A DNA stretch of 64,000 nt from Arbacia lixula (lineage: Eukaryota > Echinodermata > Echinoidea > Arbacioida > Arbaciidae), in NCBI GenBank assembly GCA_963669155.1, contig OZ022588.1, forward strand, positions 3,225,228-3,289,227, read 5' to 3'. Below the pieces are notes generated by a model that had not been told where the DNA came from, did no database searches, and saw only the letters and a list, made by a program, of their open reading frames with translations. Position numbers and translations under genes: made by a program. Shown piece by piece: positions 25,732-56,542 of the stretch (position 1 is the stretch's first letter; every line of letters begins with the position of its first letter).

Positions 25732-25755
25732 ATGAGTTGGGGAACGGATCTATGG
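25732..25755 (+). CDS. FNBP1: First coding exon of an FNBP1/TOCA/CIP4-like F-BAR protein
   Basis: ATG begins MSWGTDLW, and the donor TGG|GTAAGA follows at once, phase 0. Vertebrate FNBP1 starts MSWGTELWDQ, so the exon is one residue from identity. An exon of only eight codons is unremarkable for an F-BAR first exon. Known family members bind curved membranes as F-BAR dimers and recruit N-WASP/dynamin through SH3 during endocytosis. No exon 2 (expected D-Q-[FY]-D-N-L-E-K-H) was found to 64000, so the intron exceeds 38 kb. Head-to-head with NTMT1 at 3.8 kb. Confidence 0.82.
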
Positions 25756-26294
25756 GTAAGAAAATGATGATACAATTGTGAATCGGCTTATGTGGCGATC
25801 AACTGTTTATGGCTTCTTCCTTTATCGTACGTTGACGAAATGAATGAATTAGCGAGTGTGTGTGTGTGTGTATAAGGTGGATAGGTGATGGATGGGATGC
25901 GAGTGAGAAGGCGTAACGTAACGATCCTGCTTGTCCTCTCCAAACCAACAACGACCATGAACGACAATAATAACTATCTTGCACGCCATTACAGTGACCA
26001 CTAATTAATAGCATCAATGTGTGGAGGAAAGATCAAAGTCCCATCCTACACTTTAGGGAGATGTATATCTCTATGTGTATTTCAGTAAAAACGTTTTAGA
26101 AATTGAGTTTGTTTTGCTCTGCGTCTGTGGCATGTTCACGCATGTGTTGCTTCGTGTCCAATTATTTTGGGACATCTATTTCTTTAAAGATGCTCTCATC
26201 TTTGCCAGTTGAGTTTGTTAAGTTTCATATGTGTTGAATGGATGTTAGTTTTTGCTTAACACAATCGTGGCATGTCAATACACCAGATGGTGGG

Positions 26295-26538
26295 TACACT
26301 ACAGCTCAAAGGAATTGGCATAGCCTAGGGAAAGGGAAAGGCCGGGGGGAAGAAAGGGAAAATTAGGGAAGGAGCCAGTTTTAAAAACGTGGTATATTTT
26401 GTCCAGTTCAGCATGAAACACGATGCTTTAGCCTAAAAAGCATCATGTTTCATGCTGAACTGGACAAAATATACCATGGTTTAAAACTCCTTCCCTTTCT
26501 TCCCTTTCCCTATGCCAATTCCTTTGAGCTGTGGTGTA
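26295..26538. mobile_element. Family D hairpin element, full copy
   Basis: Ends TACACTACAGCTCAAAGG and CCTTTGAGCTGTGGTGTA. Arms of about 110 bp include GGTATATTTTGTCCAGTTCA and its complement, with the loop near CTTTAGCCTAAAAAG. Other copies are at 53067-53293 and 60926-61163, and a minimal form is at 13536-13591. Confidence 0.92.
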
Positions 26539-27169
26539 TGTAGTTTACCTCTCAAAAAATATTGAAGGAAATACTCTGTCAAGAGGCTGGTTTAGTACTT
26601 CATAAAGCAGAAGAAGCAGAACAATTGTCTAAAGTGCACTGCAAGTGTAACACAAGCCAACATTAAAGTGTTTCATTTGTTTTTTTAGAGAGAGGAGTCG
26701 TACTCCAAGAAACCAGAGCACAATGTTAAGACACATTGTTTACATTTTGACGTAGTTGCCTAGTTACTTGAAGTGTACCCTGGCAATTTTAATTCAAATT
26801 TTTGCCCTTTTCATTAACTTAACAAAAAAAAAAAATCTCTGAGTTCAGTATTTTTCAAGGTAGTAGGATATTATTTTAGATAATCCTCCCACAAATCAAG
26901 TTGAAATGCAAATATTGTAAACCTATTTTACAACTACTTTTTAGTTCCTGTGTTTCGAATGGAGCATTTAAACAGTATTTTTGTTTATGTTTGCACAACT
27001 GTATTTTTTTTACTTGCACAACAAGCGTCACCTAGACAATGACCTTATAGAATCATTCCTTAAGTACATTTTTAGAATTAAATGTTTTAAAGGTGAACAC
27101 CTCCTCTCCAGACAGACATCCATATTGCCTACACCACAATGTATGTACATTAAGTAGACTGTATTAACC

Positions 27170-27240
27170 ACCTCATTACCGACCATTGATAGTCCCAAAT
27201 GAATTGCGACACAATTTATCACCTACGGGACTGAGAAAGT
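27170..27240. repeat. TTAA/GGGACTGAGA short repeat (family F), fragment
   Basis: AACCACCTCATTACCGACC...TATCACCTACGGGACTGAG matches units at 7366-7430, 8154-8223 and 61187-61352 that share ACACAGTTTATNGCNTATGG and GGGACTGAGA. Confidence 0.5.
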
Positions 27241-27886
27241 GTAGCGCATAGTTGCAGCGTGGGGAGATCCAGACGAGTGATAACACTGGGCACCCCATTT
27301 GAGGTTTTCAACTTCCACCGCGTGACTGATTCTCTACACCGTTTGAGTCAGTCACTGTCACTTATGAATTGTGGAATCTGATAGAATGAGATTGATCTGC
27401 AGCTGATTAAGATTGATTAATGGATTGATTTACTGATGACTGAATTCAATGAGTGAATGGGTGAATGAGTGAGTGACTGAGTGAATATAGAGTATGAGGT
27501 AATGTGCCATTATAAAAATTACTTCAACAAAAAACAGATACACAGCTCATTCTATTACAATGCACATGCCATACATTACATGAATTGTATAGTACCTAAA
27601 GAAGAATAGGGTTAGTATTGAAAACAAATTGATATCATAAAGGAGTTGATGATATATTGAGAAAATATTCCAGTGGACTTGTCATTTTGCAGTTACATGT
27701 AATATAAACTGTACAACAGGTACAGGTGCATAGATATTACAATTCCAATGATATACACTGTGATTTTTACATTATTAGTACACACATTCGGTATATTGTA
27801 ACTCCCCGCCTATGTTAATGCAATGTACGTACACATTACACATAAGAATTGCATTAAACAAGGGCATATTCTCATCAGCATACAAG

Positions 27887-28340
27887 GGAGGGGGTATTCG
27901 GAAAATCCACAGAGATAAACATTTTACTCCCCTAAGATACAATGTCCCTAAAATATTTTATCTTTGGTATTCATAAACATCCTCTCATGGCTTTTGCATA
28001 CATTAACATCATCAAGCTAATGGTGTGATGTCATGAAACTGAAAGGGACATTGCGCATCAATGTCTATCAGCACGTCTTATTGCATTTGATGCGCCCATG
28101 TGCAAAAAGTTGAATGCACGAATTATTTTTGCACGTAATGCTATGGGCCTAGGCGCATGCGTCTAACTTTTTATCCTAAGTGCACTTTGGAATACTGATT
28201 TAGCTCATTTGAATAAATTTTTTATCTTTTATTGTAAATTGTCTTTTCGTAATACCAAAAAAAATTTTTCTCCTAAGTCCCTGAGATACAATAATTTTTT
28301 TTCGTAAGTTTGTTTTCGGAATACCCCCCCCCCCCCCCCC
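27887..28340. mobile_element. MITE with GGGGTATTCNGAAAA ends
   Basis: The left end GGGGGTATTCGGAAAATCC and the right end TTTTCGGAATACCCCC are inverted repeats. Subterminal CCTAAGATACAATGTCCCT and CCTAAGTCCCTGAGATACAA also mirror each other. A C-run marks the right end. No ORF. Confidence 0.78.
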
Positions 28341-29140
28341 TGTTCTGTATCAATAATTTTCAAGACCCTATCAATACGGTCATACCAGAACTGCACACAA
28401 GTTCCTGTACAAGTGGAGTGCAGCTCTCAAGACCGTTTCAAGCTCTCTGATTTTGCAGACATTAAATCCTGTGTGGTCACCGTCTGTAAGTCTGTAGTAA
28501 CACCAACTTCCTTCATTTGGGCTAAGGAGGCAGGAAGCTTCTGATCACGTCAAACATTTTCAGATCGGGTCTCTTAGGGATTTGTCTGTCTCAAAGTGGA
28601 GCCAAGTTCATGCTAAACATGGTGTACATACCTGAAGGTGTGGGTCCTTTATTAGATTGACATTTAATGTAATATGATGGTTTTATAACAGGGTCATTCC
28701 ATGAGGTTGGTGCAAAGTTTTCATGCGATGTCCAAGTAACGGAGGTATCAAACTTTGCAGTTCACCATGAAAATGAATTCAGATGTGGTTAAGTGTTGAT
28801 TTATCCATGAAAAATTGCTCCCTTTTTTCAGTAATAAACATTAAAATTGGAAATCTTTTATGGATTAGAAGCAACAGGCATACAAAAATCTTCTACCATT
28901 ATATGGACATCACATTGTTTTTACATGGACAAGAAATTTTCATAAGTCAAATTGCAAAATGCCATATTTTTTTGCTCATGCCATTACTGGACTATATTTG
29001 CCTGGTTTGAAAAAGATATGGATTTGGTGTTGTGGTATGTCACAAAAAATGTCCCAACCCTGTGGAATCACCCAACAACATTCATTTGTACAAGTATTCT
29101 TACAACAGTATAAACATAAAACAAAAATTTGAGCACCAGT

Positions 29141-29295
29141 CAGGGAAAAGATTAATTCAACATTTTTGGGGGCCACTTTTTGAGCACATTGGCCGATTTG
29201 TCTACAATTTTACATTGTGTCTATGGGAATTTTGGGGGCTCTTTTAAGCATTTCAGGGGTGAAATCACCTGAGCCCCAGTGTATTTTTTCCCCTG
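29141..29295. mobile_element. Family H MITE (CAGGGAAAA ends), copy 1
   Basis: Starts CAGGGAAAAG and ends TTTTTTCCCCTG. The interior GCACATTGGCCGATTTG and GTGTCTATGGGAATTTTGGG is shared with copies at 35625-35798, 57233-58277 (split) and 60341-60514, all in the same orientation. Confidence 0.85.
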
Positions 29296-29421
29296 GTATC
29301 GGTATAGACTCATCTACTGTAGCCCTTTGCCTGCAAGTGCACTTGATTATATTGCTGATATTAAACACTGGTCTGGTACCAGCCCAATCCTGGCTTAGTC
29401 AGTGCTATGGCACAATCTGCT

Positions 29422-29632
29422 TTAAAGGGAATATACTGTACTGGGAAGACAAAAAGCCTTCAAAAGGGTGATTGTGAGCAATCTTCTTACCAATGGTCTT
29501 AAATTCATGTATTGTCCATTTTAGAAACTTGCTGAAGGAAATGACATTTGGAGTAATAAGTGCTTAAATCACAAATCCTCAAATTCTTCGGGCCAAACAT
29601 TTTGAGGATTAGTACATGTATATCCCCTTTAA
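29422..29632. mobile_element. Foldback family B, internally deleted copy
   Basis: TTAAAGGGAATATACTGTAC begins an intact left arm, the hinge CTTCGGGCCAAACATTTTG is kept, and then the sequence jumps to ATATCCCCTTTAA. Almost all of the right arm is deleted while both TTAA ends survive. Confidence 0.85.
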
Positions 29633-30605
29633 CATCCATGAGGGCAGTGTTTAGGGGCTTGTTTATCATATATCCCTGTCTTCCTGTTGGTCTGGTTTGT
29701 GCATGGAAGTTTCCTCTACGTGTCCTGTTGATGAACACAGATTTCCTTTGGCTCCAAAGATCTACACTGTATGCTGTGAGGTTGTGTACAGTGCACACGT
29801 GGTTGCAGGCCTTTGCAGGGTACATTGTACATGTACATCTGTCCGCTTATTTTTCTGATAATTTTTCTTCAGGTCAACAACATTTTGTCACTAATAGCAC
29901 AATATGCCCATGCTCTGAAGAAGAAATTGATTTACAAAGATTTTCTTGATATCTTTTTTCACAAATGAAATATGGCTACTCAGTTTAAGATTAAGATGAA
30001 ATCAACATCTACATGTAATTTCCTTTTGTCATGTTACAGATTTCCAATTAAAATTAGATATGATTTATAGCATAAATCTGTACATTTGACTACAGTAAAC
30101 ACTGTTCGGTTTAGAATATATGGCATTTAGAAAGTGTAATTATTATTATTTATTTGATATTCATGTATTATTAGTTTTAATGATTGTGATTCATTGTAAG
30201 AAGCAAATTACCCTTCGAGTAACAAAATTAATCCAAAATAAATCTAAATGAACAACTTTTATAACAATAGCAATAAAAAATGTATTGCAGTACAAATACA
30301 ATGGTGAGAAAAGATTGAAGTCTTTATACTCAAAAGTAGAACTATTCTTAATGTGACATGTTCAATTTCAGGCATCTACCACAGCTTTTGTTATAATCAT
30401 GTAACCTTTTGGAAACCTCAGGAACTGAGTAATCAATGCATTACACTGATAGGCGCGTGCTTTCTTTAGACCCAGAAGATGTAATATAAACCGATCAGGG
30501 CCCCTAGAGGAAAATCACCTGAGCTAGGAAAAGCGCGTCAATAGCAGTCATTAGCAGTCTGAAACGAGCACATTTCAGACTTGAGGCTGAAGACAGGCAC
30601 CTCGA

Positions 30606-30758
30606 CCCTGTTGCGTGAAACTTACAATTGATGGTAATTTTGTTCCCAATGTCAACTTCTAGGGAAGCCTTGCATTTGATTGGCTGTTGAGTGATATTAC
30701 CATGGTAGTTACCAATGATGACAGAGTTACTATTAATGGTAAGTTTTATGCAACAGGG
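30606..30758. mobile_element. Short MITE with CCCTGTTGCNTNAAACTTAC ends
   Basis: CCCTGTTGCGTGAAACTTAC and GTAAGTTTTATGCAACAGGG are inverted repeats 153 bp apart, with ATTACCATGGTAGTTACC inside. Only one copy is seen. Confidence 0.82.
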
Positions 30759-32262
30759 CCCTGGTCATAGCCTCCTTTGTCACAGCAAGGAGACAAACTC
30801 ATTTATTAGTTGGGGATAAGTTTCAAGCCTGTTGTCGTCAATGAGTGCCCCATTTGTGCATTATGTATGCCCTATGAGGGAAAATCTATTGTATTTACAG
30901 GGGCTTGTAGGTGTATTTCCAGAGCTCTTTGTGTTTGCATTGCATGGGCTTTTAAATTTGCCCTGAGCCCCTATGTAATGTGTTCACTAAATCATGGTTG
31001 GAGGCACATGTACAATATGTTGTTTGTGCCTAACATGTAATGTAGATACAAGCCTTTCAGATAGTGCATCTTTATCTGAACATGTTCTTTTTTTATGCTG
31101 ACAAAATTTAAATGGCCCCTTTGAATTTGTGTCTGTGTAACAAATTGCCATGTTTATAGTGATAGCTTGCTACTGATGCTACATGCCCATGTACACAGAC
31201 ATGGACTAGTATTTATCTAGAATTAATTTGTTGGAAAGATATCATGGGAAAGAAGATAGAACCTTGAACCAAAGTACAATGTATGGACATGCATACTTAG
31301 CTTGTTGATCACACTGATCTATCTCAATAGGACGCCCAATATGCCTGTGTCAACCTGTGACTAATTCTGTATATCACGTGGCATTGACAGTAATAAATGC
31401 CTCACAGACCCTCCCTTCTCTACCAATGCCAGCTACTACAAGACACAATGCATGGTGTTCATAATGCTGCTCCAAAAAGACATTAAAAAGTAATATTACT
31501 ATTTTATGACATTATTTGGACTGGAGTCCATGTACTCTATACACTGTAGTAGTCTTCAGACTGCAATTGTTTTTTAATAGGTGTTTCCAAAGGTACCGAC
31601 CTCGTAATTTCTGAGCTGAGCTCAATTTCAATTTCATATCACAATTGCATAGAGTAATAAATTAGCGCAGTTAGTGAGTGTTCCATCTGGCTCAAAGAGA
31701 TAAAGAGCTTATTATGTGAAGTGAATATCATTATCATGTGAGCTGGAACATTATAGTTGGGTGTATCTGGTAGTCCATGTACGATGGTGTACTCATCTTA
31801 TGCAAAGTCTAGTTTAGGAGACAATTAACTGAAAAAAGGGAAATTCTAACCTATTTTTAGCTTGATTTTATTGAGTGCACTTCTGGTTAGAGCTCAAACT
31901 GCATTGTTTTTGAACAGGGAAAGTTCTATTATTGTGCTTTGTTTAAAACCATAGAAACCTACATGAAATTTGGCTCTGCACACTACCCATTTAAACTCTA
32001 TCTGTCTTATTCCTCATATCGTTTTTGCTTCCTTTGAGCCAAGCATTTCCGAATTGTGCATTGTACAGTTGGCACAGATAGTTGATTAAAAAAGGGATTT
32101 CTGCTCTTTGGAGCTGCATGCAAAATATTTTCTGGTGCTCAACTTTCATGTGACTATCATGAGCAGACTGATGGGAAAGCAATACTGCAAAGTGCTCATA
32201 CACATGTACACTGCCTATTACGCGTAAATCTCCTCGTATCCAAGCTGGCTATGTATGCTTCC

Positions 32263-32537
32263 TTCAAAGAGATAGTTCACCTTGAAATTAAGTTGGTTTT
32301 GATAATAGTGAAAGAAACATATATTGGTAAAGGTTTGATGAAAATCCGTTAAAGGATAAGAAAGTTTTGATTTTCTGAACTTTCAATTTTGTGACGTCAC
32401 GTGCGAGCTGCTCTCCCATATATTGTGTGCAGTATAATTCCATTATTTTTTTATATAGGGTTTCGTCAAAAATTCACTTATATCATGTTTCTGCTTTTAT
32501 TAAAACTAAGTTAATTTCAGGATGAACTATCCCTTAA
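32263..32537. mobile_element. Foldback family C, shortened copy
   Basis: GAGATAGTTCACCTTGAAAT begins the left arm and GATGAACTATCCCTTAA ends the right arm. Both arms are shorter than in the full copies, with the middle reduced. Confidence 0.8.
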
Positions 32538-34469
32538 AGCCGTCTGTAGGGAGAGATTGGTGAACTTCCTTCCAAAGCTAATTGGGGCAGCTCTGCAGCT
32601 CTTCCACTCCACAACTGAAACCTGGAGTTGTGTGAAGGCAGAGAGGATGGCGGTTTGGGTTGAGGGTCTGGTCAGGAGGCCTGGGGCCCTGTGCTTTCAA
32701 TATCTCAACATCAGTTGGGCCGAGATCGAGAAGATAATTAATGTGAAACTGCAGTTCTTAAGAGCCTTGTGGAGACTAGAGAGACAATGGTTTCCAGGAG
32801 AAGTGGTAAATCATCTTGGTGGGTGTACTGTGCACAAGAGCATAGATAGCCTTGTTTTCATACTGTTGGGCATTTATGTTAGAAACTGAAAAATAGAGTC
32901 AAAAGCACTCATAATTCATAAACAAAGTACTTAAACATCCGCGGGTAAGCCATGGGTAAGCCAGCAAGGAAATTGAGCATGATTAGTCTACTACAGCCAG
33001 ACCCCTTAATGAAATAGTTTGCATTATAAATGCCCACAGCCTGGAATCCAGGCTAAGACTATGGCGAAACTAGAATGGAGATTATATGAGGTGACATGTC
33101 AAAAGTTTGGACCATAAACATGGAGACATTTTTAATATCCATAAATTTCTTTCCAAGAAGGTTTATAGTTCATTGGGGATTAATACACTCATATGATCAG
33201 TTGAAATGATCAGAAAGTAATCTTGTGATAATTTTGTCTCTGAAGGACAAACTCATGCTATAAATTCATGTTAGGAATGGCTGCTCTGTAGGCCTAAGCG
33301 TGGTATAAAAAGGAACTGAGCAAGAGATTTTTGTTATTTCCTTTTTTGAAAATTCCTGAACATGAGACTCGTGATAGAATGAGAGCATGGACGTGCCCTG
33401 ATCTGGTATGTACATGTATCTGGTACACGGTACAGCATACTGTATACACCATGCATAACTGTGGACCTTCTCGCTTCACGCATAAGAATGCGATGCATGC
33501 CACCAACGCTGAAACGAGCATTCCAGTCCCCAGACGGGCGCTATCACATCGGCTTGGATTAATTACGCATGTGCATCCTACCTGGAGGTTTGCTCTGTGG
33601 ACAGCTCTGAAACTGATAACACATTTCTATCTCATGAAACTTTTATTGAGGTCACACCATAATTCATGATATAAGGTCTGGTGACAATAATGCCTATTTA
33701 CTGACTTGTACATGTACACTGTATGTTTGTACAGTCACACACAAATATCAAACTTTCAGTCAAATGTGGACAGAGCCTGACCACAGTTCCAGTTCATGCC
33801 AGCTCTCAAAATATTCTTTGGAATTCCTTCTGTACATTGCGATCATGTAGCACTCCAACATACTGTACATAGCACAATTGTTTACATTCTGGGTACATTG
33901 TAAATCATGATAATGCATAATTTGTGTTCCTTCATGCATGAATTGTCATTCAATACTTCCTTCTTTATATGGCTGTGATCATTGTAACATGTTTTTTATG
34001 CCTCCGCCATTTAAGTGGCCAGAGGCGTTATTTTTACAGTGATATATTTAGGGTAGAAGGAATGGTGTGACAGTATTTGATCATGTTACACTAATGATTC
34101 TTATATAAAGATGACCTCTGCTTGATATCCACCTTTCTGTTATAATCATTCAAAGTTCTTCACACCAGGATCTTGTTCATTTCATCAGCAAGTTTACTTA
34201 CTGCTAGGAAAGTTCAATAAATTTGAATCTGGTTATGTATTTAAGTTAGATGATGAGATTGAGACATCTTTTCTCCTGTGAATTTACAATTTCTGTACAT
34301 TTCCCCTTCCAGTCTCCCCTGTTACATTCAGTATTGAATTAGAAGTAGTGTGGTTCCAAGTACATTACCACATGCTGGAACGATCATTCTGTCATAAGAA
34401 GGAAAGACATTGATTAAAACATTTAATGTACGCGCAGATTGGCCTCAAGGCTCGAACAAAGAGCACTAC
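32538..34469. other. Intronic DNA without recognised exon
   Basis: An ORF at 32557-32889 (110 codons) has no recognisable domain or splice context. Family E motifs (CTACTACAGCCAGACCC and GCCTGGAATCCAGGC) lie at 32990-33060, and the fragment TATGCCTCCGCCATTTAAG lies at 33998-34035. Confidence 0.5.
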
Positions 34470-34800
34470 ATTTAATGTGAACAGGTCTCCTACAACGATT
34501 CATTCATTATGTGTAAACAGGCCCTCTAGCAGGGTTTCCTCTGCATGCGTATGCATTATATATGAACAGGCTTCTAGCTGTGATTGATAGGTTAAATGTG
34601 AACAGTCCTCTAGGAGCAAGTAATAAATGGAATGTGAACATGCCTTTGGCAACACGTAGCAATGTTCATTTCAGTTCATGTGAACAGTCCTCTAGCAGGG
34701 ACAAATAGCTGTGAAGCTGTCATAGCAGCACTCAATGCGTTGAATATGAACAGGCTGGTATTAAGCGTTGAATATGAACATGCCATTAGCAGCATGGTAT
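34470..34800. repeat. Degenerate repeats of ATGTGAACAGNCCTCTAGCAG
   Basis: About eight imperfect copies occur near 34474, 34508, 34559, 34596, 34632, 34679, 34743 and 34772, irregularly spaced by 30-65 bp and all on the same strand. This looks like an old decayed minisatellite. Confidence 0.7.
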
Positions 34801-35624
34801 CCCTCTTCCCTGTCGCTGTAATCATTCAACACTTCCTCTCAGTAGGAGCCTGTCTGTTTCTTCAGCGTTCATGTTACACTATTCAGGTTTCAAAGTGTTG
34901 CTACGTATGTAAGTATGCATGGGAACTAGGGAACATGAACATGTGTAGAATGTAGGTGAAAGGTATACATACTACACATTCACATGAAACTACATTTATT
35001 TTCAAACTTATATTTTGCCAATAAGTACATCATCTAATGTGCTGGACGCAAAGACTCACAAATGTGTCTGTATGTGCAACTTTTCCATTATCGACTGACC
35101 GTTGTGGATGGGGCATCATTTTACCCTCCTGTTTGGTGTCGCAGTGTGTAGCACAAATAAATATACGCTATGTACGACATGAATAGAGTATAGTATACGA
35201 GTACATGACAGTGTTATTTATGAGGAAGTTGCTGTCAGGTTTGCATTGCCAATATAAAAGGGGGAAGAAGGATTTTATCTGGCTGCTTGACATTTTGCTC
35301 AACTTCCTTTTTATAGTTGTGATATCCTTGTGCAGGTTGGTGCATGTAGGGGGCAAAGTTACAGTAAACATGGCCCAATATCTTCAGGACTGGTTTGGGA
35401 ATACTGTACATGTAGGCAATAGGACTGATTTGATAGCATAACACTCATGTACTGTACACTACGTGTCCATTTCATTGCAAACACAAATGCTGGTCCTGCA
35501 CATTTTGATTGTGTGAATTAAAAAAATTAAGTCCCCTTATGAATTGTAAACTTGGACAGGCCTTTGTGTACATATTTGCAGGCTTACACATTACTTTTGT
35601 CATTAGTAAATCATCTACAGAACA

Positions 35625-35798
35625 CAGGGAAAAAATATTTTTTAATTTTCGGGGGCTACTTTTTGAGCACATTAGTCATTTGGCTACAATTTTACATTGT
35701 GTCTATGGGAATTTTGGGGGCTCTTTTAAACATTTTTTAGGGCTCTTTTAAGCATTTCGCGGGCGAAATTGCCCCAAGCTCCAAGTATTTTTTCCCTG
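35625..35798. mobile_element. Family H MITE, copy 2
   Basis: CAGGGAAAAAATATTTTTTA to TTTTTTCCCTG. It carries a small internal duplication of GGGCTCTTTTAA near 35718-35755. Confidence 0.85.
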
Positions 35799-37446
35799 AC
35801 AGAACATGTCAATTGTACAGTTATGTGATGTACATTAACAATTTGCAAGATTTGAGCAATATGAAATGTGTGTAATTGATATAAAATAGTATGATTATTA
35901 TGCAAAAGCCACACCTCTATACATGTACAGATACGTAGGTCTGTGTTGGATGATTTAGCAGCAGAATTCATGTACATGTACCTGTACATGTGGGTACAAT
36001 ACAGTACATAAGTGTGAAACGGAATGAGTCATTGCGGCGTGCTCTCATGCAGCAAATATGCTTGGCTCAGGTGAAAACTCACACAGGAATTACTATACTA
36101 CACTACCTGTGCGTTGTTGTGTACACAAGTACATGTACATAATGTACAGGTACAGGTACAAAGAGGAAGTAGAGAAAACACAGGGGGAGGGGGAGCTCTG
36201 GGGGGAAAATGTGTTCTTTAGGGTGGGGGTTGGCCTACTGTAGGGGAGATGAATGGTGGAGATTGTGTGGGTGGTTGGGGGGGGGGGGGGTGTCATACCT
36301 AAAAAAGTGACATGATGTATGCATTTAGCTCTGCAATATTGAATTACCAGTAGCACAGAGGTAACTTAAATGGAACATAATTTTAGCATACTTGTGCAAC
36401 ATGAGTAAAGCAAGTTGCAGCAGGGATAAACAGGGGTAAGGGGAGGGGAAGATATTGTTTTCTATCATGTATCATGTGTTACAAAATTCTGCAATATTGA
36501 ATTACCAGTAGCACAGAAGCGACTGCATGTACATGTAGTAACATTATCACAGCGTACCTGTTAGACACGACAACAGCTTGTTGCAGCGGGGTAAACATTT
36601 CTCTGTGAATTTAATCAATTGATGGGGATGCTTGCAGGGGTTAATGCCCATGGCTCAAGTCAACCCATGGACTTCTTATTATTGCAGAGGCAACCTCTTT
36701 CAGCCCTCCATTAATTAGTGAACCTTGTACACCTTATCTGGTAGACTCCATTAGCACTAAAAGATTGCATGCTGTTATGTAATCGGCCATCCACTGATTT
36801 GTGCGTGGGTACAGGTACAGCAATTTTGCCCCAGCCTAACAACTGGTTCCATCCATTTTAATTTGCTGTGCATTCTGTGGTAAGGTGTACAGTACATGCA
36901 AATGAATTGGAAATGATAGGATCGGGCGTCTAATTTGTAACTTGTCAATATCCGCTTGTCACTCAATAATGCCTCGCACACTCTACACATAGTGCATGTT
37001 TCAATTTTTGTTTCACACTTTCCGTGTGCAGCTATACAACTTAATTAAGCTGTAGAGATATACTTGTTAGGTAATTAAATTCTAGGCTGTTGAGCTGAAG
37101 AGCTTTTTTTTGCATCTGCCACAAAGAGGTCGGAGGACATTATATTTCATAATATAGAATACATAAAAAGTGTAAAAGCGATAGATTAAAAATGATTTCT
37201 GGGTTAATTATCAAGCCTGATGTCATAAAAAAGACACCTTGTTTTAAAATGTATTTAACCACACAGCTCCTGCAGAGAAAAAGTTAATAATATTTGCTTT
37301 GCTCCGAGAGATGTGTATGGAGTATATCACTGAAAAGATTTCATGAATTTTATGTTTTTAGGATTATGATCAAAATTGGATTGAATTAAAATGCAGGATA
37401 CATGTATGTATCATGCGCGTACATGTAGTATCATGTCTGCTATTCT
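35799..37446. other. Intronic DNA rich in TGTACATGTACA strings
   Basis: Between 35920 and 36150 there are at least five overlapping TACATGTACA-like strings, and G-rich tracts lie at 36170-36290. No exon is recognised. Confidence 0.6.
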
Positions 37447-37566
37447 GGGGGGCATTTCATGAAAGTTGTCAGCACGGACAAGCTGTCTTTTTCCGACAAT
37501 TACCATAGTAACAGTCAGAGGCTAGTGCCTCTCAGCCAATCAAAACCGATTCTTTCATGAAATGCC
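37447..37566. mobile_element. Diverged copy of the GGCNTTTCATGAA foldback
   Basis: GGGGCATTTCATGAAAGTTG, GACAAGCTGTCTTTTTCCGA and CAATTACCATAGTAACAG match the left arm of 23208-23379. The right arm is reduced to TTCATGAAATGCC. Confidence 0.8.
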
Positions 37567-43622: not shown

Positions 43623-43639
43623 TAATGTCTTCTAGGTAT

Positions 43640-43699
43640 ATGCCGGGGGTGGGGGGGGGAGGGGGGGTGGGGGGGGAGGGGGGGGGGGGTGGGGGGGCA
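43640..43699 (+). repeat. G-run tract, G-quadruplex-prone
   Basis: About 60 nt of almost pure G broken only by single T or A. It directly follows the element at 43008-43622. Length in an assembly is unreliable here. Confidence 0.9.
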
Positions 43700-44860
43700 C
43701 TCACATACATTGGTGGTACGGGGACGTGCCGCTTTGAAGACCCCCTTTTTGAGACCTCGATATCTGTTCTTTAGATCCTCTATATCCTAAGCATGGCGAA
43801 AGTTCCGGGTACATGTAGTTGTAGGACAGTGTATGTACATGTATTTAATACCTTCATAATGACTAATTCTTAGAATAATATCTAGATACGTGCAATCAAA
43901 CAAGCTAATATTTTTGGAGAAACGATGAAACATCAATTCAGATTTGTTTATTTGTTACTACACTCATCTTAAACAGCATGAGATTATAATGAGGTACAAA
44001 GTATTGGAATCTAGTATACTACTATACAAAGAGTACACAGAATTTCATGGAAATGAAGGAGCCAACAGAAAAATATTAAAAACAATATTTATGAAATAAA
44101 TTAGTTTAGTTATTACTTGTCATAAAAACATACATGATGAGGTATTTTAAAAGTATTGGAAGCAAACGTACATGTACAAAACAAAACAAAAACAATACAA
44201 TATTGACAAAATAAGCAGAAAAACAGAAAAATATGCATGCTGCACTAACAAACCCAACAAAGCATAACTTTTAATTAAGGTGTTGATAATTTTATGACAG
44301 ATATTTCTGATGACTTATCTAACAGCACAGTACATAGAAACTGTTAATTGCTGTACATTAAATGTAATTTATTAACATGGGAAAATACTTTAATGAAAAT
44401 GTGATGTTTTAAAACTTAAATTATATTACTTGATCTAGAGCCCAACTACTGGCCCATGTACTGCATATCACTTTTGCATTAAAAAATAGATAGATAGCAA
44501 CTTGTTATAAATGTGTATAGAGCACTTATGTACAGTTGAATACATTGCACATGCATGCATACAGGTACATTTACAGTACTGCCCATGTTCATCATGTGCA
44601 GTGTATTAGTAAACAACTGCTGGTATGTGCATTCATGCCTTCTTACTGTATCTCACCATGCTCTTTGGCTCTACAACTCAGGTTGTTTGATAACAACCAA
44701 TTTCCACAATGGCTTTAGGAAAAGTCTGCATGATGTGCTGGTACCCAACTGTCATAATTATTCCCCACAGTGCTCAGTGCAGGGAAAGTTTATGCTCTAG
44801 GCTTAGCCTTGCCTCAAGGCTTTTGGACATGGCTAATTCAAACTTAAAGACTAGAGTCTA

Positions 44861-45240
44861 GGGGCGTGTTTATCAACTCTTTTTTTGGTAGCATTAAGGT
44901 TTCCAAACGTGTTTAATTTTTTTTAAACGTGTTTAAACGAGTTGATAAACGTAAAGGTGTTTCGATTATGGGGTTTGGAAAGCTGTTTTGAAACCCGCAA
45001 ATTTGTACGATCCTAAACATGTTTAAACCAGAAACACGTTTAAAGAGGCGAGATAAACGCAAAGTTGTTTTGAAACGCGTTTAAACCACGCGTTTTCGTT
45101 GACAAGGCTGGTTTTCGACTTGGGCGATCGAGTTGATAAACGCACCGGTTTTTTGAATTCGTTTGGAAACTTGTTTGGAAACGCGTTCGTAAAGGCCTTT
45201 GGAAAAGCGTTTAAATATCTGAAAAGTTGATAAACACGGC
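44861..45240. mobile_element. TA-flanked MITE with GGNCGTGTTTATCAACT ends
   Basis: TA|GGGGCGTGTTTATCAACT and AGTTGATAAACACGGCC|TA. The interior repeats GAGTTGATAAACG and AAACGTGTTTAAAC several times. No ORF. Confidence 0.85.
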
Positions 45241-45311
45241 CTAGTACTCACAAGACTAGTCACTGTTTCATTCTCCTCTTTTCTCCTTCCGTCCCAAGGC
45301 AAGCCCAGGAA

Positions 45312-45743
45312 GGAATTGAGAAAGATTAGTCTACCGCAGCCAGACCCGGTTATTGAATAATGTAGTTTGGATTTAAAATGCCAAACAGCCTGGTAGCCAG
45401 GCTAGGTGACGCCTGGCTCTTGTCCAAGCTCACAAAAGTAAATTTTTATTATTTGATGTACGCTATACATGTAGGTTGACATACAATGTCAGTGAGTTAG
45501 TCCCAATCAATAAGTCTGAAATTGCAGACTAGCTGTTAAATGCCTTGCCGCAAGGGACACAACTAGCAAGTCACAGTGCTAGTCTCATAATCTAAAGATA
45601 CATATTTTGAGAAAGTGGCTGAACTTTTTATGTGCCATTTGTGAATATGTTGATTATGTTTACCAGTAATGCACAAAACATTGATAGAGCATCATTTTAT
45701 CTGCTGTGCATAGGGTCTGTTATTGTAGACTACTGATCACCCA

Positions 45744-45774
<31 letters not shown>

Positions 45775-47097
45775 CATCTATTAACTGCATACTTCTCAAC
45801 TCGAGATGGAGCTATGTAAGACATTCAAAGAATGTTGAATGTGTTTAATTACATTCATGCTGTCATACAAGGACAAACATACAATAGACCATTTTATTAA
45901 TGTAGTCAAATTTATGGAATGTTTCTTCCAAGGGGCCTAGTAAGAAGTTATTCCATTAACCTGTACCTATCAATATTTGTGTCATTTGTACTGGCATCAA
46001 TATAATGTCCTAACACATTAGGTTGAATATCTCAAAGAAAGCTGAATATATCTGTTCCAGATTTTGACTGTTCAGCATTTTAATCCAAACTATTTAATAA
46101 AAGGGTTTGGCTGCAAACTAATCATTCTTGATTGCTTTTCTGACTCACCCAGGCCCACTGAGAAAACAGGACAAAGCTAAGGTGACTAGTCTTCGAGTTT
46201 TTGAGTCTTTGAGTTTGCATAAAAAATGTCCAACAGCCTGAAAATCAGGCTACTATGCGTACCTTGTAGGACTTAAGGCAAAAGAAGGAGTAAGATGAAT
46301 AATGAAATAATTCCAATTCATAAAGAAGGTGTTGGATATGCTAAGTCCATGTAATTCCATTACCACACAAAAGTCTCCTATCAAATAGCCCAACACAAGG
46401 CTAAGTACATCTGTGTGATTAAATTATCATAGATACCCTCCTTCAGGGCATATAATCTAATGTAAGCATGTGTGCGTGGATTGCAGTCAGAGATAGATGC
46501 CGTGCACCGCGTGCATCGCGCATCACAGCCGCAGCCATATGCTGGGCTCGTAAAACCGTAGGTGTCCGGAGCGTGAGCATGCGTTAATGATGTCTAAATG
46601 AAACACCATCTACCAGGCTGGGAGGGCATCTGGCTGAAGCATTGGTTTGGAGGCCTTTGTTCATGGGGAAAAGGAGGTTGAGATAAGAAGGAAAGGGGCT
46701 AAAAAAGTAGAAGGGGGGGGGGGAGGGTGGGTAGATTGATTTTAACCCCGTCCACCCCTCTTTTATGCAACTTCTTTCCGATTCTGATGCTACCATGTTC
46801 CAGTCGGCCCATTGCAGTCAAAACGAGAATGGAACCCTGACAAGTATAACCCTCTCAGTATTTAGCCTTTAACCCTCTGTGCGGCTTTGTTGGATTTCTG
46901 CACAGGTAATACACATAAATCCTATAGAGCAGCGTTCTATCTAGCACACAAAGGGCACACTAAAGGCTATTGAGTTTCAATTATGGTATTGAGGGGGTTA
47001 GCTGCATAAGGGCAAAGCATTCAAGTTTAAGTTAATGTATAGGGTATTGGAGATGAATGTGCATGATTTACGGTACAAGTGTAAAAATTATGGGAAG
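45312..47097. other. Intronic DNA with family E repeats and a CT microsatellite
   Basis: Family E copies at 45312-45402 and 46090-46255, a (CT)n tract at 45747-45775 and a TTAA-type fragment at 46865-46960 (TAACCCTCTGTGCGGC). No exon is recognised. Confidence 0.5.
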
Positions 47098-47310
47098 CAC
47101 TCGTTATTCCGAAGGTTCTTTATTCTGAACGTTACGTGACAAATGCTCGGATTAACAAACCCTTTTTTGTTTCCGGACTAACGAGCATCGAGGTGTAGGC
47201 AATTTATGTGTTTCGGAATTACAAATCTTCGGATTAACGAACCATCGGAATAATCTTTGGATCAACGCACCTTCGGAATAAACGAACCTTCGGAATATCG
47301 AACTGTAACC
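47098..47310. mobile_element. Short element built of TTCGGAATAACGAACC motifs
   Basis: TCGTTATTCCGAAGGTTC at the left, and CGGAATAAACGAACC and TTCGGAATATCGAACTGTAAC at the right, are inverted. The motif is repeated about six times in both orientations. It resembles ends of pogo-like DNA transposons. Confidence 0.7.
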
Positions 47311-48715
47311 AAAACTATGTGCATACAATGCATGAAGGTTCTTAGAAATGAAGTACATTTACATGTACTGTAGATTAATATCACGTCAAATATCAATTAT
47401 TAATTACATGTGGGTAATTTGATATGGAAGTGAAACCAAACTAGGCTGTTACATGCCACTATTGTTCACAGTCATTGCAGTGGACATTTGTCAAACTAAA
47501 TTGCATGGGGGATATGTGTAGGATTCAGGGTCTTTTGCAATTGTGAGTCAAAACTGATTTATAAATTTGAATAAAGATGCAAAGATAGTGGAACCAATTT
47601 GTCAGAAATTATGAAAAAAAAAACTATGAAAAAAAAACATGAAAACAAAGAAAATAAACAAATATGAAAAAATATGAGATTTTATACATAAAATCCTTAG
47701 TGTTTATTGCTGATCCATGCTGAGTTTCATGACATTTGTAAAAGGGCTTCCCTGTCTTTTGTAGGAAAGGGTAGAAGTGGTAAAGACTATTGAACCCATA
47801 AGTAATGAAGTGCCAGGCTGCTATGACCCATGGGCCCCATTTCTCAGAGCTGCCATGTCTCCCTGATTTTGCAGGAGACTCCCCGAAAGTAGACCAATAA
47901 TACTGCATTGGATTTCATCGATCATATCACCCAATCTTCCTGAATATTGATAGACTATTGTCATTAGGTTGTATGCATTTTGATCTCCCTGATTTCTGAT
48001 GAAATTTCCGCAAATCTTCCTGATTGTTGAATTTGAATGTTGGTAGCTCTGCATTCTTCTATTATTTTAGGATACCAGGAAGTAATTATCTCAAGGGTTT
48101 ATATACAAGCATCAAAATTAAACAAAATGTTGACTCTATGATGACAATGATAATCATGGTTCTTTAATGAGTTATTTTACTGCATATATAATCATTACTA
48201 CTTGTACCCCTTACCTTAAATGTCTTTCTCTTATCGACACCTACACTACTGTAATTGAGTAAATGCACATTAGAAGATGCACCCAGGTTGACCGTGAAAA
48301 AGAGCAGACCCACGTGCTTAAATTTGAGTGGTGTTGAGTGTGAGGGCTACTGTCTTTGTTTATAGACGCCCTCTTCCCTGCTGTAATTGTATTGTGTGAG
48401 ATGCGCTGCCATTGGCTGCGGGATAACAAGCTGCATTATGCGGTGATCTGCTGGTGATGAGGATGTCTTCCCCAGCTGGTCTGGATATGCTCTGGAGAGC
48501 TTTAAAATGAAGCTGTCTGGTCTCAATAGTGCAACACATCTGTCTAGTTAGCCTGCATTCCAGGCTGTTTTCCATATATAATCCACATAATAACAATAAA
48601 CATGTCTACTTTCAAAAGCTAGCCTGGCTCCAAGGCTGTGAGACATTTCTGATCCCAGCTGACAAATAGAGTCTAGTACCCTTGAGACTAGTCACTAGAT
48701 TGGTTTGGTACAGAC

Positions 48716-49070
48716 TTAAAGGGAGTATACTGCACTAGGAAGGCAAAAATGCCTTCAAATGGTGAAAGTGAGCAATCTTCTTGCCAATGGTCTTAAATTG
48801 TCAGTTTTAGAAACTTGCTGAAAGTTATTTGCCCTCAAATGATCCACATTTTTAGTGCTTATCACAGATCCTCAAAATGTGCGGGCCGAACATTTTGATG
48901 ATTTGTGATTTAATCACTTGTTACTCAAAATGTGGCTCATTTGAGGGCAAATAACTTTCAGCAAGTCTCTAAATTGGACAATACATGAATTTAAGACCAT
49001 TGGTAAGAATATTGCTCACGATCACCATTTGAAGGCTTTTTGTCTTCCCAGTACAGTATATTCCCTTTAA
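48716..49070. mobile_element. Foldback MITE family B, full copy
   Basis: TTAA-bounded, TTAAAGGGAGTATACTGCAC to CAGTATATTCCCTTTAA, with hinge CAAAATGTGCGGGCCGAACA. Arms of about 170 bp. Close to the copy at 13854-14226. Confidence 0.9.
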
Positions 49071-50785
49071 ACTCAAAACATCATCTCATGGGCCTATTGC
49101 TGATGTCACAAGGATTTTCCTACATGTATTTCACAAGTCCCGGATTTAGGTGATTTCAGTCAATAGGGCTTTGTTGATAAAGCTGACTCAGCATTTTAAA
49201 TCACCGGTTTCTATAGTACTTTGCTGATCCCAAATACCAGTTACTAATTCCCCCTTTGTTAACCATCTTAGTACCAAGGCGTGAAAAGACAATTGATTTA
49301 CACAGGGAATGAGCCCATGACAATGAGAGGTGTAAGTGGTCATTAAACTATTTGACCCTTTCCGAACTGGCTTTGGAATTGTTCAATAAAGCAATATAAA
49401 TATTGTCATTGGCTACTGTCCTTGGCCTCGTGATGATAAACCATGAGGAATACTGTCTTTTATGGCAAAAATACTCTCAAGGGGAGACAGGAACTGAATT
49501 TTAAAAGCTGGTGGTCTCTTTAAATGGGTAACTTTAAATATGATCAAGGGAAATGCTAATTGTGGTTGCCAAAGCAGCTTGTAATGCATTTCCTGTTATG
49601 TTATGTGTTCCAGTTTATTAGCCATTTAGTCTGCATACCACATACATGTATTGCATGTTCATTTCCCTTTGAAATGAATCTGTCAGGACTCTATAAAAGA
49701 TTTGGCTTCTTGTATAGATGTTTTTGGTGGTCGTTTCTCATCCCTAATTATCACAAATGTTAGTCAGTCAATGCAATCAATGTTATTTTAAAAAAATAAT
49801 TAATCTTGATACATGCCCAGTTGTATTCAGCGGATGAATTTCATAACTACATGTAGCTGTATGTATGTATAGTTTTCTACAGACTTTTCATACCCATTCA
49901 GAATATTGCAACAATAGGACTTACGAGCAAGTTTCTCCAATAAGTTGCATGTCATCTTGATTACTGCAATAGAAATGATGTAGAATAGGATTTTGCCTGT
50001 AAGGGGTTACAGTCCACTTTGAGAGAAGCTTTTGGTTATAGTGGGTAGGTGTGATGTACTTGTAACTGAAATGTTTGTTACAGGCTTCCTGTTTTTTCTA
50101 TAAAATGCAACTTCAGTCCATGGAAAGCTCAAAATCAGGTCAGTCCAGGCTGAAGTGCAGCTGGTGAGTGTAGTACAACTTGATTGGAGGTTGAAAAAGA
50201 AGGCATTTCCAGACACGTACAGTGTGTACATGTAGTCCTGTACTAAACTACAGCTACACAAGTGAGAGCAGTTCAAATCACTTCCTGTATTGCTTACAAT
50301 GTAACTGATCTTCTTTTTATTATTGGTTATTTTGGTGAAATATTCTTTATGGAAAATGTTACTAGGATTAAAAAAGTGTTATTTTATAAATTCTGCTTTT
50401 TTTTTTTTTTAAATATGAAGAAAATACCTGTACTTTTGAAGCTCCTCACAATATTGTGAATTGTTAGGTCTATTCCTTGCACACTTTACATCTACCAGGT
50501 GTTCCAAAACCTCACTCACATATTGTTTGTAGGAAGAGTTCATGCAATCATTTAATCTATAGACCATGCCACACTTGTCCCTGCAATGCCAGGCTCATAT
50601 CTGTCACTGTTGATTAAGATGGAATTCCTGTCTATCGCTGTGCTAAAGTTGTCAATCACGTGAGCATTGCATTCCTCTCCCAAGTCCTCCTCTCAAACCC
50701 AGTGAAAATGGCACTACTTCATCTATGGTACTCATAGCCTAGCGTAGGTACAAGGCTGCAAGTTGCATGGACAAAACCCAGTCTA
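49071..50785. other. Intronic DNA, nothing recognised
   Basis: AT-rich. No exon or bounded element was found. Confidence 0.5.
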
Positions 50786-51418
50786 TTAAAGGGCCCCTGT
50801 CATCAGAATGCATGTTGACTTCTGCTGATGCGACTTAATATGTGTATAACAAAATCACTAACTGTTCAATGCAAATATATGTCCTATATTTTAAAATAAT
50901 TTGTCTGTATTTTTTCTCAGCACTGATAAGCCCCGCCTCCAAAATATCCTCCAACTCAAGATTCCCCTTGTGACATCATCAAAGGTAGAAATTAGCAGGA
51001 TAATAGACATAATTTATGCACAAAATAAACATTGCAATGACTACCTGCAAGTGCTTATAATAGCATCACATAGCCAGCACATTTCTGACATAAGGAAACG
51101 ATTATTCCCACATGAAAGGTTGTTAGATGGTATTGTGAGAAGACATGTGATGATCTTGTGTCAGGTGAAGGTAGTCATTGCAATGTTTAGTTTGTGCATA
51201 AATTCTGCTTATTATCCTGCTAATTTCTACCTTTGATGATGTCACAGGGGAAATCTTGAGTTGGATGATATTTTGGAGGCGGGGCTTATCAATGCTGAGA
51301 AAAAATATAGAAAAATTATTTTAAAATAGAGGACACATATTTCCATTGAACAGTTAGTAATTTTGTTATGTTGCATCAAGGTAAGTCGACATACATTTTG
51401 ATGACAGGGGACTTTTAG
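50786..51418. mobile_element. Foldback MITE family A, full copy
   Basis: TTAAAGGGCCCCTGTCATCA to GATGACAGGGGACTTTTAG, with arms of about 270 bp including CCTCCAACTCAAGATTCCCC and its inverted partner. The right TTAA is altered to TTAG where the next small hairpin abuts. Confidence 0.88.
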
Positions 51419-51523
51419 TATGTCTGGTAAAACAGACTACGCCCTAATTACGTCCTGGCTCCTCTGATTTCTTCCCTAAGGATGGGATTGGAGCATATAG
51501 TCTGTTACCAGACATAGTAAACA
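51417..51523. mobile_element. 105-bp hairpin MITE abutting family A
   Basis: AGTATGTCTGGTAAAACAGA then CTA pairs with TAGTCTGTTACCAGACATAG. It starts exactly where the family A copy ends, so one probably inserted at the end of the other. Confidence 0.75.
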
Positions 51524-51873
51524 GCCTAGCTTGTGTCCATGCACCTCACAGCCTCGTTCCTAGGCTATGGTAATCATTCTGGTGTTTGAGAAAAAAGCAC
51601 ATACATTGTATAGAGATGTATGTATTAATGCTGAATGGCACTTTGAACATTAAATCAGGTGCAGAGGAGTATGCAAGATATTGAATAAGAAAAGGGTAAG
51701 CAGAATCTGAATAATTTATAGCTTTATAGGACTGTACATTGTCATTGTAGGCAAGAATCTCGCCATTTGCTGAGCATTGTGTATCAGAAGCTTTGAAAAA
51801 GTGTGTAGCCAAAATCAAATGTGCAACATGAGGGATTATAGCACTCATAGTGTTCATTTCCTGTGGAAGCTGT

Positions 51874-52694
51874 GTACATCATTGTGATAGGGAAGGTGAA
51901 CCATGCGTAAGGTGGCAGTGAGAGTAGGCCTGCAGACATTGATTAATGATCTGTATGTCAGGATGCATGTAGGTCTTGTTCTGTACAAGGGTTGTACATC
52001 ATTGTGATAGGGATGGTGAACAATGCATAAGGTGGCAGTGAGAGTAGGCCCTGCAGACATCGATGAGTGATCTATATGTCAGGATGCTTGTACGTCTTTT
52101 TCTAAGGGTTGTACATCATTGTGATAGGGATGGTGAACCATGCATCAGGTGGCAGTGAGAGTAGGCCCTGCAGACATTGATGAGTGATCAGTATGTCAGG
52201 ATGCATGTACGTCTTGTTCTGTATGAGGGTTGTACATCATTGTGATAGGGATGGTGAACCATGCATAAGGTGGCAGTGAGAGTAGGCCCTGCAGACATTG
52301 ATGAGTGATCAGTATGTCAGGATGCATGTACGTCTTGTTCTGTACAAGGGTTGTACATCATTGTGATATGGATGGTGAACCATACATAAGGTGGCAGTGA
52401 GAGTAGGCCCTGAGACATTGATGAGTGATCAGTATGTCAGGATGCATGTAGGTCTTGTTCTGTACAAGGGCTGTACATCATTGTGATAGGGATGGTGAAC
52501 CATGCATAAGGTGGCAGTGAGAGTAGGCCCTGTAGACATTGATGAGTGATCAGTTTGTCAGGATGCATGTAGGTCTTGTTCTGTACAAGGATTGTACATC
52601 ATTGTGATAGGGATGGTGAACCATGCATAAGGTGGCAGTGAGAGTAGGCCCTGCAGACATTGATGAGTGATCAGTTTGTCAGGATGCATGTAGG
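51874..52694. repeat. Minisatellite, seven copies of a ~120-bp unit
   Basis: GTACATCATTGTGATAGGG starts each unit at 51874, 51994, 52111, 52232, 52353, 52473 and 52594. Each unit contains GGTGGCAGTGAGAGTAGGCC and GTCAGGATGCATGTAGGTCT. Units differ at few sites, so the array is young and likely to vary in copy number. Confidence 0.95.
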
Positions 52695-52790
52695 TCTATA
52701 GCCTGGCATCCAGGCTGTTAGACATTTATTTATAGTCCAAACTATTCAAGAAAGGTATCTGGCTGAAGTGGCCTACCGGTATCATTGTTG
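52695..52790. repeat. Family E short repeat directly after the minisatellite
   Basis: TAGCCTGGCATCCAGGCTGT and AAGAAAGGTATCTGGCTGAA. The join to the last minisatellite unit is immediate (AGGTCTATAGCCTGGC). Confidence 0.65.
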
Positions 52791-53066
52791 ATTTATTTTT
52801 TAGGGAAGGACAGGGAGAAAAGGATGATGATAAGTGATAAGCCTTAGTTTACTAGACTCTATTTTTATGCCTCTGCAACAATCCACTTTTGGTTATAATA
52901 TCCAAGAGCCTGAAAGCTAGCCTATTGGACTCCACTGTACATATGTAGGACTGGGGCTGGGTATCTCTGGCTCCTTGACAAGAATGCAGAATGTGATACA
53001 GTGTGGAAGGGTGACTCTGCTGGGGGAACATTCATGTCATACCTGATCAGCTTTCATCTCAACTAG

Positions 53067-53293
53067 TACACTACAGCTCAAAGGAATTGGCAGAGGGAAA
53101 GGAAAAGGGAAGGAGCCGCAGTTTTAAACCATGGTATATTTTGTCCAGTTCAGCATGAAACAAGATGCTTTTTAGGCTAAAGCATTGTGTTTTAAGGCTG
53201 AACTGGACAAAATATACCGCAGTTAAAAATTGCGTCTCCTTCCCTTTCTTCCCTTTCCCTTTACCTATGCCAGTTCCTTTGAGCTGGAGTTTA
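53067..53293. mobile_element. Family D hairpin element, copy 2
   Basis: TACACTACAGCTCAAAGG to CCTTTGAGCTGGAGTTTA, with arms GGTATATTTTGTCCAGTTCA and TGAACTGGACAAAATATACC-like and loop near TTTTTAGGCTAAAGC. Slightly more diverged ends than copy 1. Confidence 0.9.
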
Positions 53294-55109
53294 CATGGAT
53301 AGATTTGTCTTGTTATTTAATAGACTATTGTTGATACGTGCTGGGTATGCAAATTTTGGACATGTTTTGAACAATATCCCTCAACCCACTTCTGATGAAA
53401 AAGATGCAAAGTCCAGGTGGGGAAAATGTCAGATTACGGTAGAATTGTGTGTGACATTAACACAATCCAAATGGTTGCACCAATGCATGCATTTACTTGT
53501 GCTTAAACTGTACTCAAACATGTCCTTTCCATGTATGATACATGTTTGTTTCTCCCCAGACTTCTCTGTATAGGGGAAAAATTTTACCCTAACTACTTAG
53601 TGACGCGTTATTACATTGGCCTATAATTTCAGTTTCAATGGTTGGAATGCACTCTGAAATCTGAATCTATCAGTTGTTGCTCCTCGGACAATCCTTGGAC
53701 AAGCTTTGGGGTTATCATTTATAATATATTGCATGGACGACACAAATAAAAAACGGTCTATAGCAGAGGCTGTCACTTTACCAGCAGAGAGCTGTTCAGT
53801 TATATCTTTATTACACATCAAATGCACAGTAAGAAAAGTGGATGTATGAGTAATGCACAGCGTGTTCATGTACATGTGACTGATTTGTAATCCTGCTCTA
53901 AAAATTTTAATGCTGGATTACAAATCAATGACAACATAGATCTGTATGTTGAAATGATTTTAAAAAAAGGACATTCCTGCATTCAATTTGAATGTTCAAA
54001 AGTCGTCATTTCCTATGTTCATGTACTTGAATCCTTTGCCTCCTTCTGTGCACCTGGTTGGAACAGCAGCAATGCCATAGCTATTTTCAGTAGGTATCCT
54101 TCACACTGAAATAAACATTAAAAACCTTTATACGAGAATATGAGACTTGAAAACAATAATACTGCAGATTTTCATAACGTTGCAAATGTCCTAGAAAAAG
54201 ACGCTATTTTTAGTCAGCGCTTCTCCTAATCTGGATCAAGTAGTTATCTGGTCTTGGCAGGACGTTAATCCGGTAATGACAGGAGGGGGGTATGACATCA
54301 TGGATCTGGATATGGATCTGATATGGTTGCACTCCAGGTCACGGCCCACCGAGGGGAGGGACTCAGCCAGATGGGGGCATTGATTTCCCCCTCCGATTCA
54401 AGAGAACAACCCTCCGGTAATTAATCCCCGACGATGACTGTACGCCCACTAATCCAATGAGTAATGAGAGAAGGGAAAAGGCTGTGTTTTTGTGACAGTT
54501 TCTTGGCCGAGTCAGTCGTAGAAACTCTCTCTCGCTGATTTTCTTTAATTCTAGATTTGGTTGAGGCTGAGTGAAAGCCAAGAGAAGGCACAGCTGCAGA
54601 CAGTTGTGTGTCCGTAGTGTGTCCCTCTGGAGCCTCTTGGATAAAGCAACAAAATCCCTCCGTTTATTCAGTCCTTCATAAGTACATGAGGCTCAACATT
54701 ACGTGAGGCAAGGGTAGAAGGCTCTCCATTGCGTTTTTGGCTCAACAGCTTGTGTCGTCTTCTGAAGCATTGTCTCTGAATGCTCTCTGGGAAACAGAAC
54801 ATACAGAACATACCCTCACAGAGCTATTACTGCCACGTAATGCAAGGTATGAATCCGGGATAGCGTTTGCTGTCGCTTTTTAAAGCCGTCGCATTTTGTT
54901 GTGAGACTACAATGAGATCTACTTGTATCCCTTGCGTCATTTGATGATGATGATGATGCTGGCAATGGACGCGATTTGAATTCTTACTTCAGGAATCAAC
55001 TGGTTGCAGCGCTTTGGATTTAAAGTGAATCTTAACAATATCGGAGATTGTTTTATAGACTAGCTTGTGTCTGCAGATCCAGTTTGTGATTCAAGGAAAG
55101 GTGATCTGC

Positions 55110-55154
55110 ATGCCTACGGTAAAGGCAGCACTTTGGATTTTAAGTGAATCTTAA
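55110..55154 (+). CDS. Small upstream ORF 1 (14 aa) in leader repeat
   Basis: MPTVKAALWILSES then TAA. It starts at the ATG of leader copy 1. Its start context matches the main ORF start in copy 3 (MSTVKAGS). Translation is unproven; it counts as a uORF only if the transcript starts upstream of 55110. Confidence 0.4.
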   Translation: MPTVKAALWILSES

Positions 55155-55267
55155 CAGCAACCAAACAAACATTCTCCATTGTTTTTTTCATCTGGATTTT
55201 GGAGAGTGTTTGATAGACCAACTTTCGTCTGCAGATCCAGTTGGTGATTCGAAAAAAGGTGATCTGC

Positions 55268-55312
55268 ATGCCTACGATAAAGGCAGCAATTTGGATTTTA
55301 AGTGAATCTTAA
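55268..55312 (+). CDS. Small upstream ORF 2 (14 aa) in leader repeat
   Basis: MPTIKAAIWILSES then TAA, the counterpart of uORF 1 in leader copy 2, differing at two residues. Same caveat as uORF 1. Confidence 0.4.
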   Translation: MPTIKAAIWILSES

Positions 55313-55412
55313 CAGCAACCAAACAGACATTCTCCATTGTTTTTTTCATCTGGATTTCGGAGAGTGTTTGCGTCTGCAGGTCCAGTTGGTGATTCGAGAA
55401 AAGGTGATCTGC

Positions 55413-55604
55413 ATGTCTACGGTAAAGGCAGGATCCGAGAGGAGAACTCTGCAGAACCGTGTTTCTCAGCTCGGTGTGATGTCCACCAACTATAAGCCCC
55501 CCCATAAGGTCCGGTCAAGTATCCATCGGGACAGGCGCAAGTCTATGCCTGATCCCTTGGAGCCCACCGTGTCCTACAGGGAAGCTATCAACAGCGTGCT
55601 TTGG
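55413..55604 (+). CDS. FNBP1: Candidate alternative first exon of the FNBP1-like gene (64 codons)
   Basis: The frame opens after an in-frame TAA at 55299. The first in-frame ATG is at 55413. It encodes MSTVKAGSERRTLQ, NYKPPHKVRSSIHRDRRKSM and PTVSYREAINSVLW, then the donor TGG|GTGAGT. The product is basic (about +7) with an RRKS basophilic kinase site at 41-44. It ends Leu-Trp in phase 0, as does the canonical exon MSWGTDLW at 25732, so splicing to the same exon 2 would keep the F-BAR frame. I do not recognise the sequence from another family. The link to FNBP1 is inferred; a separate gene cannot be excluded. Confidence 0.55.
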
Positions 55605-55640
55605 GTGAGTTCCCTGGGGTAGGATCTTGAACTTAGATAT

Positions 55641-56476: not shown

Positions 56477-56542
56477 GTGTGTGTGTGTGTGTGTGTGTGT
56501 GTGGGGTGGGGGGGGGGGGGGGTGGGGGGAGGGAGGGGGGTT
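56477..56542. repeat. (GT)n followed by a G-run
   Basis: About 12 GT units lead into a tract of nearly pure G of about 40 nt. It is G-quadruplex-prone on the plus strand. Confidence 0.9.

Follow-up and report, generated by a model that had tools for sequence, protein, structure and literature searches.

TOCA-family F-BAR proteins couple membrane curvature to actin assembly. Their usual N-terminus across the TOCA/CIP4/FNBP1 family is MSWGTELW, and the FBP17 start is present in the solved chain 2efl_A. The closest described system is found in another F-BAR gene, FER, where a promoter in intron 10 drives FerT, a product with a 44-residue tail and without the F-BAR, whose transcripts have been described (PMC10049441). 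Two further papers deal with a cassette exon of FNBP1, exon 10 (PMC8070448), and with the alternative promoters of another gene (PMC11335299). This article concerns a window of 64,000 nucleotides (64 kb) from the echinoid Arbacia lixula (assembly GCA_963669155.1, contig OZ022588.1, positions 3,225,228 to 3,289,227 of the forward strand), in which a TOCA gene has its usual first exon, here called exon 1a (25732-25755), and a candidate alternative first exon, exon 1b (55413-55604). All coordinates are those of the window unless given as distances past its end.

As in FER and FerT, an F-BAR gene would here be combined with an intronic promoter and a product carrying its own N-terminal tail. Unlike FerT, which starts from intron 10 and has no F-BAR (PMC10049441), the predicted product of exon 1b would start before exon 2 and keep the entire F-BAR. 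With the TOCA/CIP4/FNBP1 family the gene shares exon 1a, which is the family start, and the domain order F-BAR, HR1 and SH3. Searches of titles and abstract openings in the open-access literature, outside which most subscription papers fall, turned up none on a second start exon for a TOCA-family gene. The preferred reading, which we hold to be probable, is that exon 1b is a lineage-restricted alternative promoter and first exon of this gene, giving the protein a basic N-terminal extension.

The coding part of exon 1a, on the plus strand, spells MSWGTDLW, identical in seven of eight residues to the FBP17 start; it has an A at position -3 of its ATG and ends at a phase-0 donor, GTAAGA. Candidate exon 1b lies on the same strand, 29.7 kb away when measured from start to start, and consists of 64 sense codons ending SVLW, followed by the phase-0 donor GTGAGT (55605-55610). 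In each exon a complete Trp codon precedes the break, so that both end Leu-Trp in phase 0. The 1b frame has an upstream stop at 55299 and, if left unspliced, would close at 55620. When the 3910 plus-strand GT sites in the window are ranked with a generic donor matrix, 15 score as well as the 1b donor or better, and 68 score at least as well as that of exon 1a. A genome search places the 1b peptide at a single location in the assembly (607 Mb, 590 contigs), and for this reason the peptide itself is not a dispersed coding repeat.

Donor-like sites, defined as those scoring at least as high as the exon 1a donor (a threshold set after seeing the sites), number 172 on the plus strand and 164 on the minus strand across the window and the 100 kb beyond it (164 kb). 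An in-phase Leu-Trp or Phe-Trp precedes two of these 336, those of exons 1a and 1b, and none of the 334 others, a contrast that is strong despite the post hoc threshold. Frames that open with ATG, run for at least 60 codons and reach a phase-0 donor equal to that of exon 1b or better occur twice on the plus strand of the window and never on the minus strand; in 40 locally resampled sequences their mean was 0.225 per strand, with at least one in eight of the 40. A Leu-Trp ending is seen in one observed frame of this class and in none of the 40 resampled sequences. The other observed frame (5712-6014, plus strand) reaches a very good phase-0 donor (score 6.4) and ends Gly-Lys.

The gene at this locus is of the TOCA/CIP4/FNBP1 type, with an MSWGT[ED]LW start (here MSWGTDLW) and, after it, exons coding for the F-BAR, HR1 and SH3. 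A search of the 100 kb past the window with FBP17 and FNBP1L found these exons in order on the plus strand, those for the F-BAR and linker at about 3.5-8.7 kb past the window end, those for HR1 at about 30 and 33 kb, and that for SH3 at about 46 kb. Identities range from 30 to 65%, and the best expect values (E) in the 164 kb are 2e-11 for the F-BAR, 4e-7 for HR1 and 1e-8 for SH3; the FBP17 query itself matches 2efl_A along its entire length. Both candidate first exons lie upstream of exon 3 of this gene, on the same strand, and intron 1 takes up more than 38 kb of the window. Neither tblastn over 55601-73500 nor a profile of four sequences over the 164 kb recovered exon 2, in which the first F-BAR helix should be encoded. 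A stretch of Ns lies where it is expected, between the window end and exon 3; exon 2 most probably falls within it, which would place it downstream of both first exons. FCH matches at other places in the assembly (C17 and C1) were rejected as exon 2, being PACSIN-like and srGAP-like by eye.

Further along the gene, at 8074-8289 and 8467-8673 past the window end, two adjacent and related F-BAR exons of 72 and 69 codons are in phase 0 at every end, with strong acceptors (8.98 and 8.84) and a weak donor (0.70) on the first. They code for alternative forms of the F-BAR end and its linker and are candidate mutually exclusive exons.

The first-pass annotation had described the two exons as a candidate promoter switch at the start of a TOCA/FNBP1 gene. 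Its coordinates, strand, peptides, phase, donors and 29.7 kb spacing were all borne out when the sequence was read again, and the domain exons downstream on the same strand confirm the gene assignment. The proposed switch is supported in part, by gene type, by order and by the lack of a good acceptor, which befits a first exon; its weaker parts are the presumed splice to a shared exon 2 and the 64-residue length, discussed below.

How might one gene make use of two such starts? The usual promoter, head to head with the neighbouring gene NTMT1, would give transcripts starting with exon 1a, and a second promoter in the long intron 1 would give those starting with exon 1b, in which 42 (or 64) residues would substitute for the first eight. 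The shared phase 0, and the Leu-Trp leading into the first F-BAR helix, would allow either exon to join exon 2 with the fold kept. We infer that exon 1b is transcribed, that it is spliced to exon 2 in a manner mutually exclusive with exon 1a, and that it has an effect at the membrane. In many F-BAR domains the opening residue, right before helix 1, is aromatic and often Trp, and a PACSIN-like exon of this same genome has SFWEVG at the F-BAR entry position. An alternative first exon here should bring phase 0 and an aromatic entry, and exon 1b has both. The alignment between FBP17 and the solved CIP4 chain 2efk_A starts only at residue 9; the fold therefore seems able to do without the eight residues before it and could tolerate another start. 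The 1b tail would be basic and probably mostly unstructured, with an RRKS motif at the F-BAR entrance, and in cells with the second promoter on it would add an electrostatic membrane contact and possibly control by phosphorylation.

Where translation of exon 1b would begin affects the length of this tail. A 158-base-pair tandem repeat of 2.5 copies (55041-55431) reaches up to and into the start of the 64-codon frame, and the first six residues, MSTVKA, fall inside its last copy. Codon usage, modelled on 751 training codons from known or presumed exons of the locus, gives the open frame within the repeat a score of -0.109 and the unique part 0.211. The full 64 residues of the first-pass annotation are doubtful, given the weak context of the first ATG and its position inside the repeat. 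A start at Met 55479, with G at position -3 and a coding part of 42 codons (55479-55604), is the more plausible choice. The computed isoelectric point is 10.9 for 64 residues and 10.2 for 42, with charges of +6.7 and +3.7, and the RRKS motif noted in the first pass is present in both versions, although in a basic peptide a motif of this kind carries little evidential weight. A structure predicted for the isolated 64 residues (mean predicted local distance difference test score 66, helices at 6-20 and 55-62) was not used as evidence, and a Pfam scan of the same peptide found no domain. Two weak matches among solved structures, both to one methyltransferase at E of about 0.9, were rejected, and none of 18 pattern matches to the 1b peptide in viral contigs was confirmed.

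Several observations weigh against an alternative first exon, and most of them would suit a chance open frame, in which case an ATG frame within intron 1 would go unused and reach Leu-Trp at a good donor by accident. Searched against proteins of about 364-1157 residues, 1b residues 1-64 gave five word-sharing candidates, none with E of 1 or less, and the peptide had no relative among proteins of about 35-112 residues; lengths of about 113-363 residues and unannotated genomes were left out of these searches, and the echinoid TOCA content of the collection was unchecked. A collection with echinoderm TOCA proteins should have turned up a conserved, annotated 1b isoform, and given no relatives, exon 1b is lineage-restricted, unannotated or not real. 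Its coding signal is modest. The 1b frame is the best of six at 0.191 bits per codon with the runner-up close at 0.143, and the 57 codons after the repeat reach 0.211, matched by one of 154 stop-free intronic stretches (one of 32 with GC of at least 0.48), while the last 42 codons give 0.156, a score that nine of 402 intronic stretches reach; the training set behind these frame and stretch scores held one 17-codon exon in the wrong frame. A 40-codon scan of the whole window, made with the corrected set, ranks the 1b region 12th, below known exons and their antisense, repeats and a handful of stretches without explanation. Such a signal is supportive, not decisive. The first ATG, at 55413, has T at position -3 and sits in the final repeat copy, and the length of the frame is unremarkable by itself, since the 106 codons from stop to stop are equalled or exceeded by 28 other frames in the window. 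Nor does the base composition resemble that of the usual start: the observed/expected CpG ratio is 0.58-0.65 before and over exon 1b in 300-base windows, against 1.07 at exon 1a. Part of the frame is also made of tandem repeat, and frames of at least 60 codons at equally good donors occur in eight of the 40 resampled sequences. Even so, we consider a chance frame unlikely. It would have to account for an ending absent from the 334 other donor-like sites and, in frames of at least 60 codons, from every resampled sequence, and for the setting of the exon, correctly stranded and flanked by exons 1a and 3 of the one gene for which a Leu-Trp ending is required.

If exon 1b is real, it could instead be a cassette exon between exons 1a and 2, in phase 0 at both ends, yielding MSWGTDLW, some 75 further residues and then exon 2. 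AG dinucleotides that would keep the frame do exist, for example those that would make the exon begin at 55380, 55386 or 55470. On a simple acceptor matrix, however, the best of the eight that follow the upstream stop, the one for a start at 55386, reaches 0.10 and ranks 334th of 3743; the runner-up, for 55470, has -0.49 (rank 399), and the remainder range from -2.87 to -14.66. Acceptors of known exons of the F-BAR gene and NTMT1, chosen as the best AG near each exon and hence biased to high values, score 3.59-9.48 in nine of 11 cases; the other two, with uncertain borders, score -2.23 and -1.78. Exon 1b thus has a good donor without a good acceptor, weak ones being present, which fits a first exon and makes the cassette quite improbable. 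Less credible still is that exon 1b belongs to a separate plus-strand transcript, a nested gene or non-coding RNA. An intron of more than 38 kb has room for one, and small exons without Pfam domains escape scans; but the three plus-strand frames of 25756-64000 contain no Pfam domain at E of 0.1 or less, and the next recognised exons on that strand belong to the F-BAR gene. On the minus strand, a Pfam scan restricted to 55620-64000 likewise found no domain. The alternative first exon agrees best with what is found at exon 1b, namely a phase-compatible donor on the gene's strand, a position probably upstream of exon 2 and no usable 5′ acceptor.

Some 2 kb past exon 1b, at 57351-57650, CpG density over 300 bases reaches its maximum for the window (32 CpG, observed/expected 1.48), and a second CpG-rich block follows at about 57951; this may represent a promoter or a recently acquired insert. 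A bacterial promoter scan was uninformative here.

The neighbour upstream, NTMT1, is on the minus strand, with its first coding exon at 21767-21934, head to head with exon 1a, and its last at 19329-19838. The two ATGs, at 21934 and 25732, are 3.8 kb apart. Among the best 120 of 1286 matches, NTMT1 is nearest to echinoderm proteins, with 76% identity to Diadema setosum and 80-81% to two unnamed proteins, and reaches at most 70% with the remaining matches, among them those of a sea cucumber and of sea stars. In human, too, NTMT1 and FNBP1 lie side by side, on 9q34. Elsewhere in the window, minus-strand frames at 1366-1662 and 8652-8777 look by eye like pieces of GPCPD1, and a 184-codon minus-strand frame at 9722-10273 resembles, also by eye, the end of a retrotransposon reverse-transcriptase protein. 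A tandem array with a 121-base unit, about seven copies and 94% matches occupies 51873-52697.

As to origin, we give about even odds that an echinoid lineage acquired a promoter switch in its TOCA gene, by which the eight-residue start gives way to a basic, potentially phosphorylated extension with Leu-Trp kept. If true, membrane binding of a Cdc42/WASP adaptor would be switched by the choice of start site. It would also illustrate the birth of a first exon within a long intron, beside a tandem repeat, constrained by phase and by two entry residues. For the family, a promoter-selected N-terminus at the F-BAR entrance would be a simple means of tuning membrane binding tissue by tissue.

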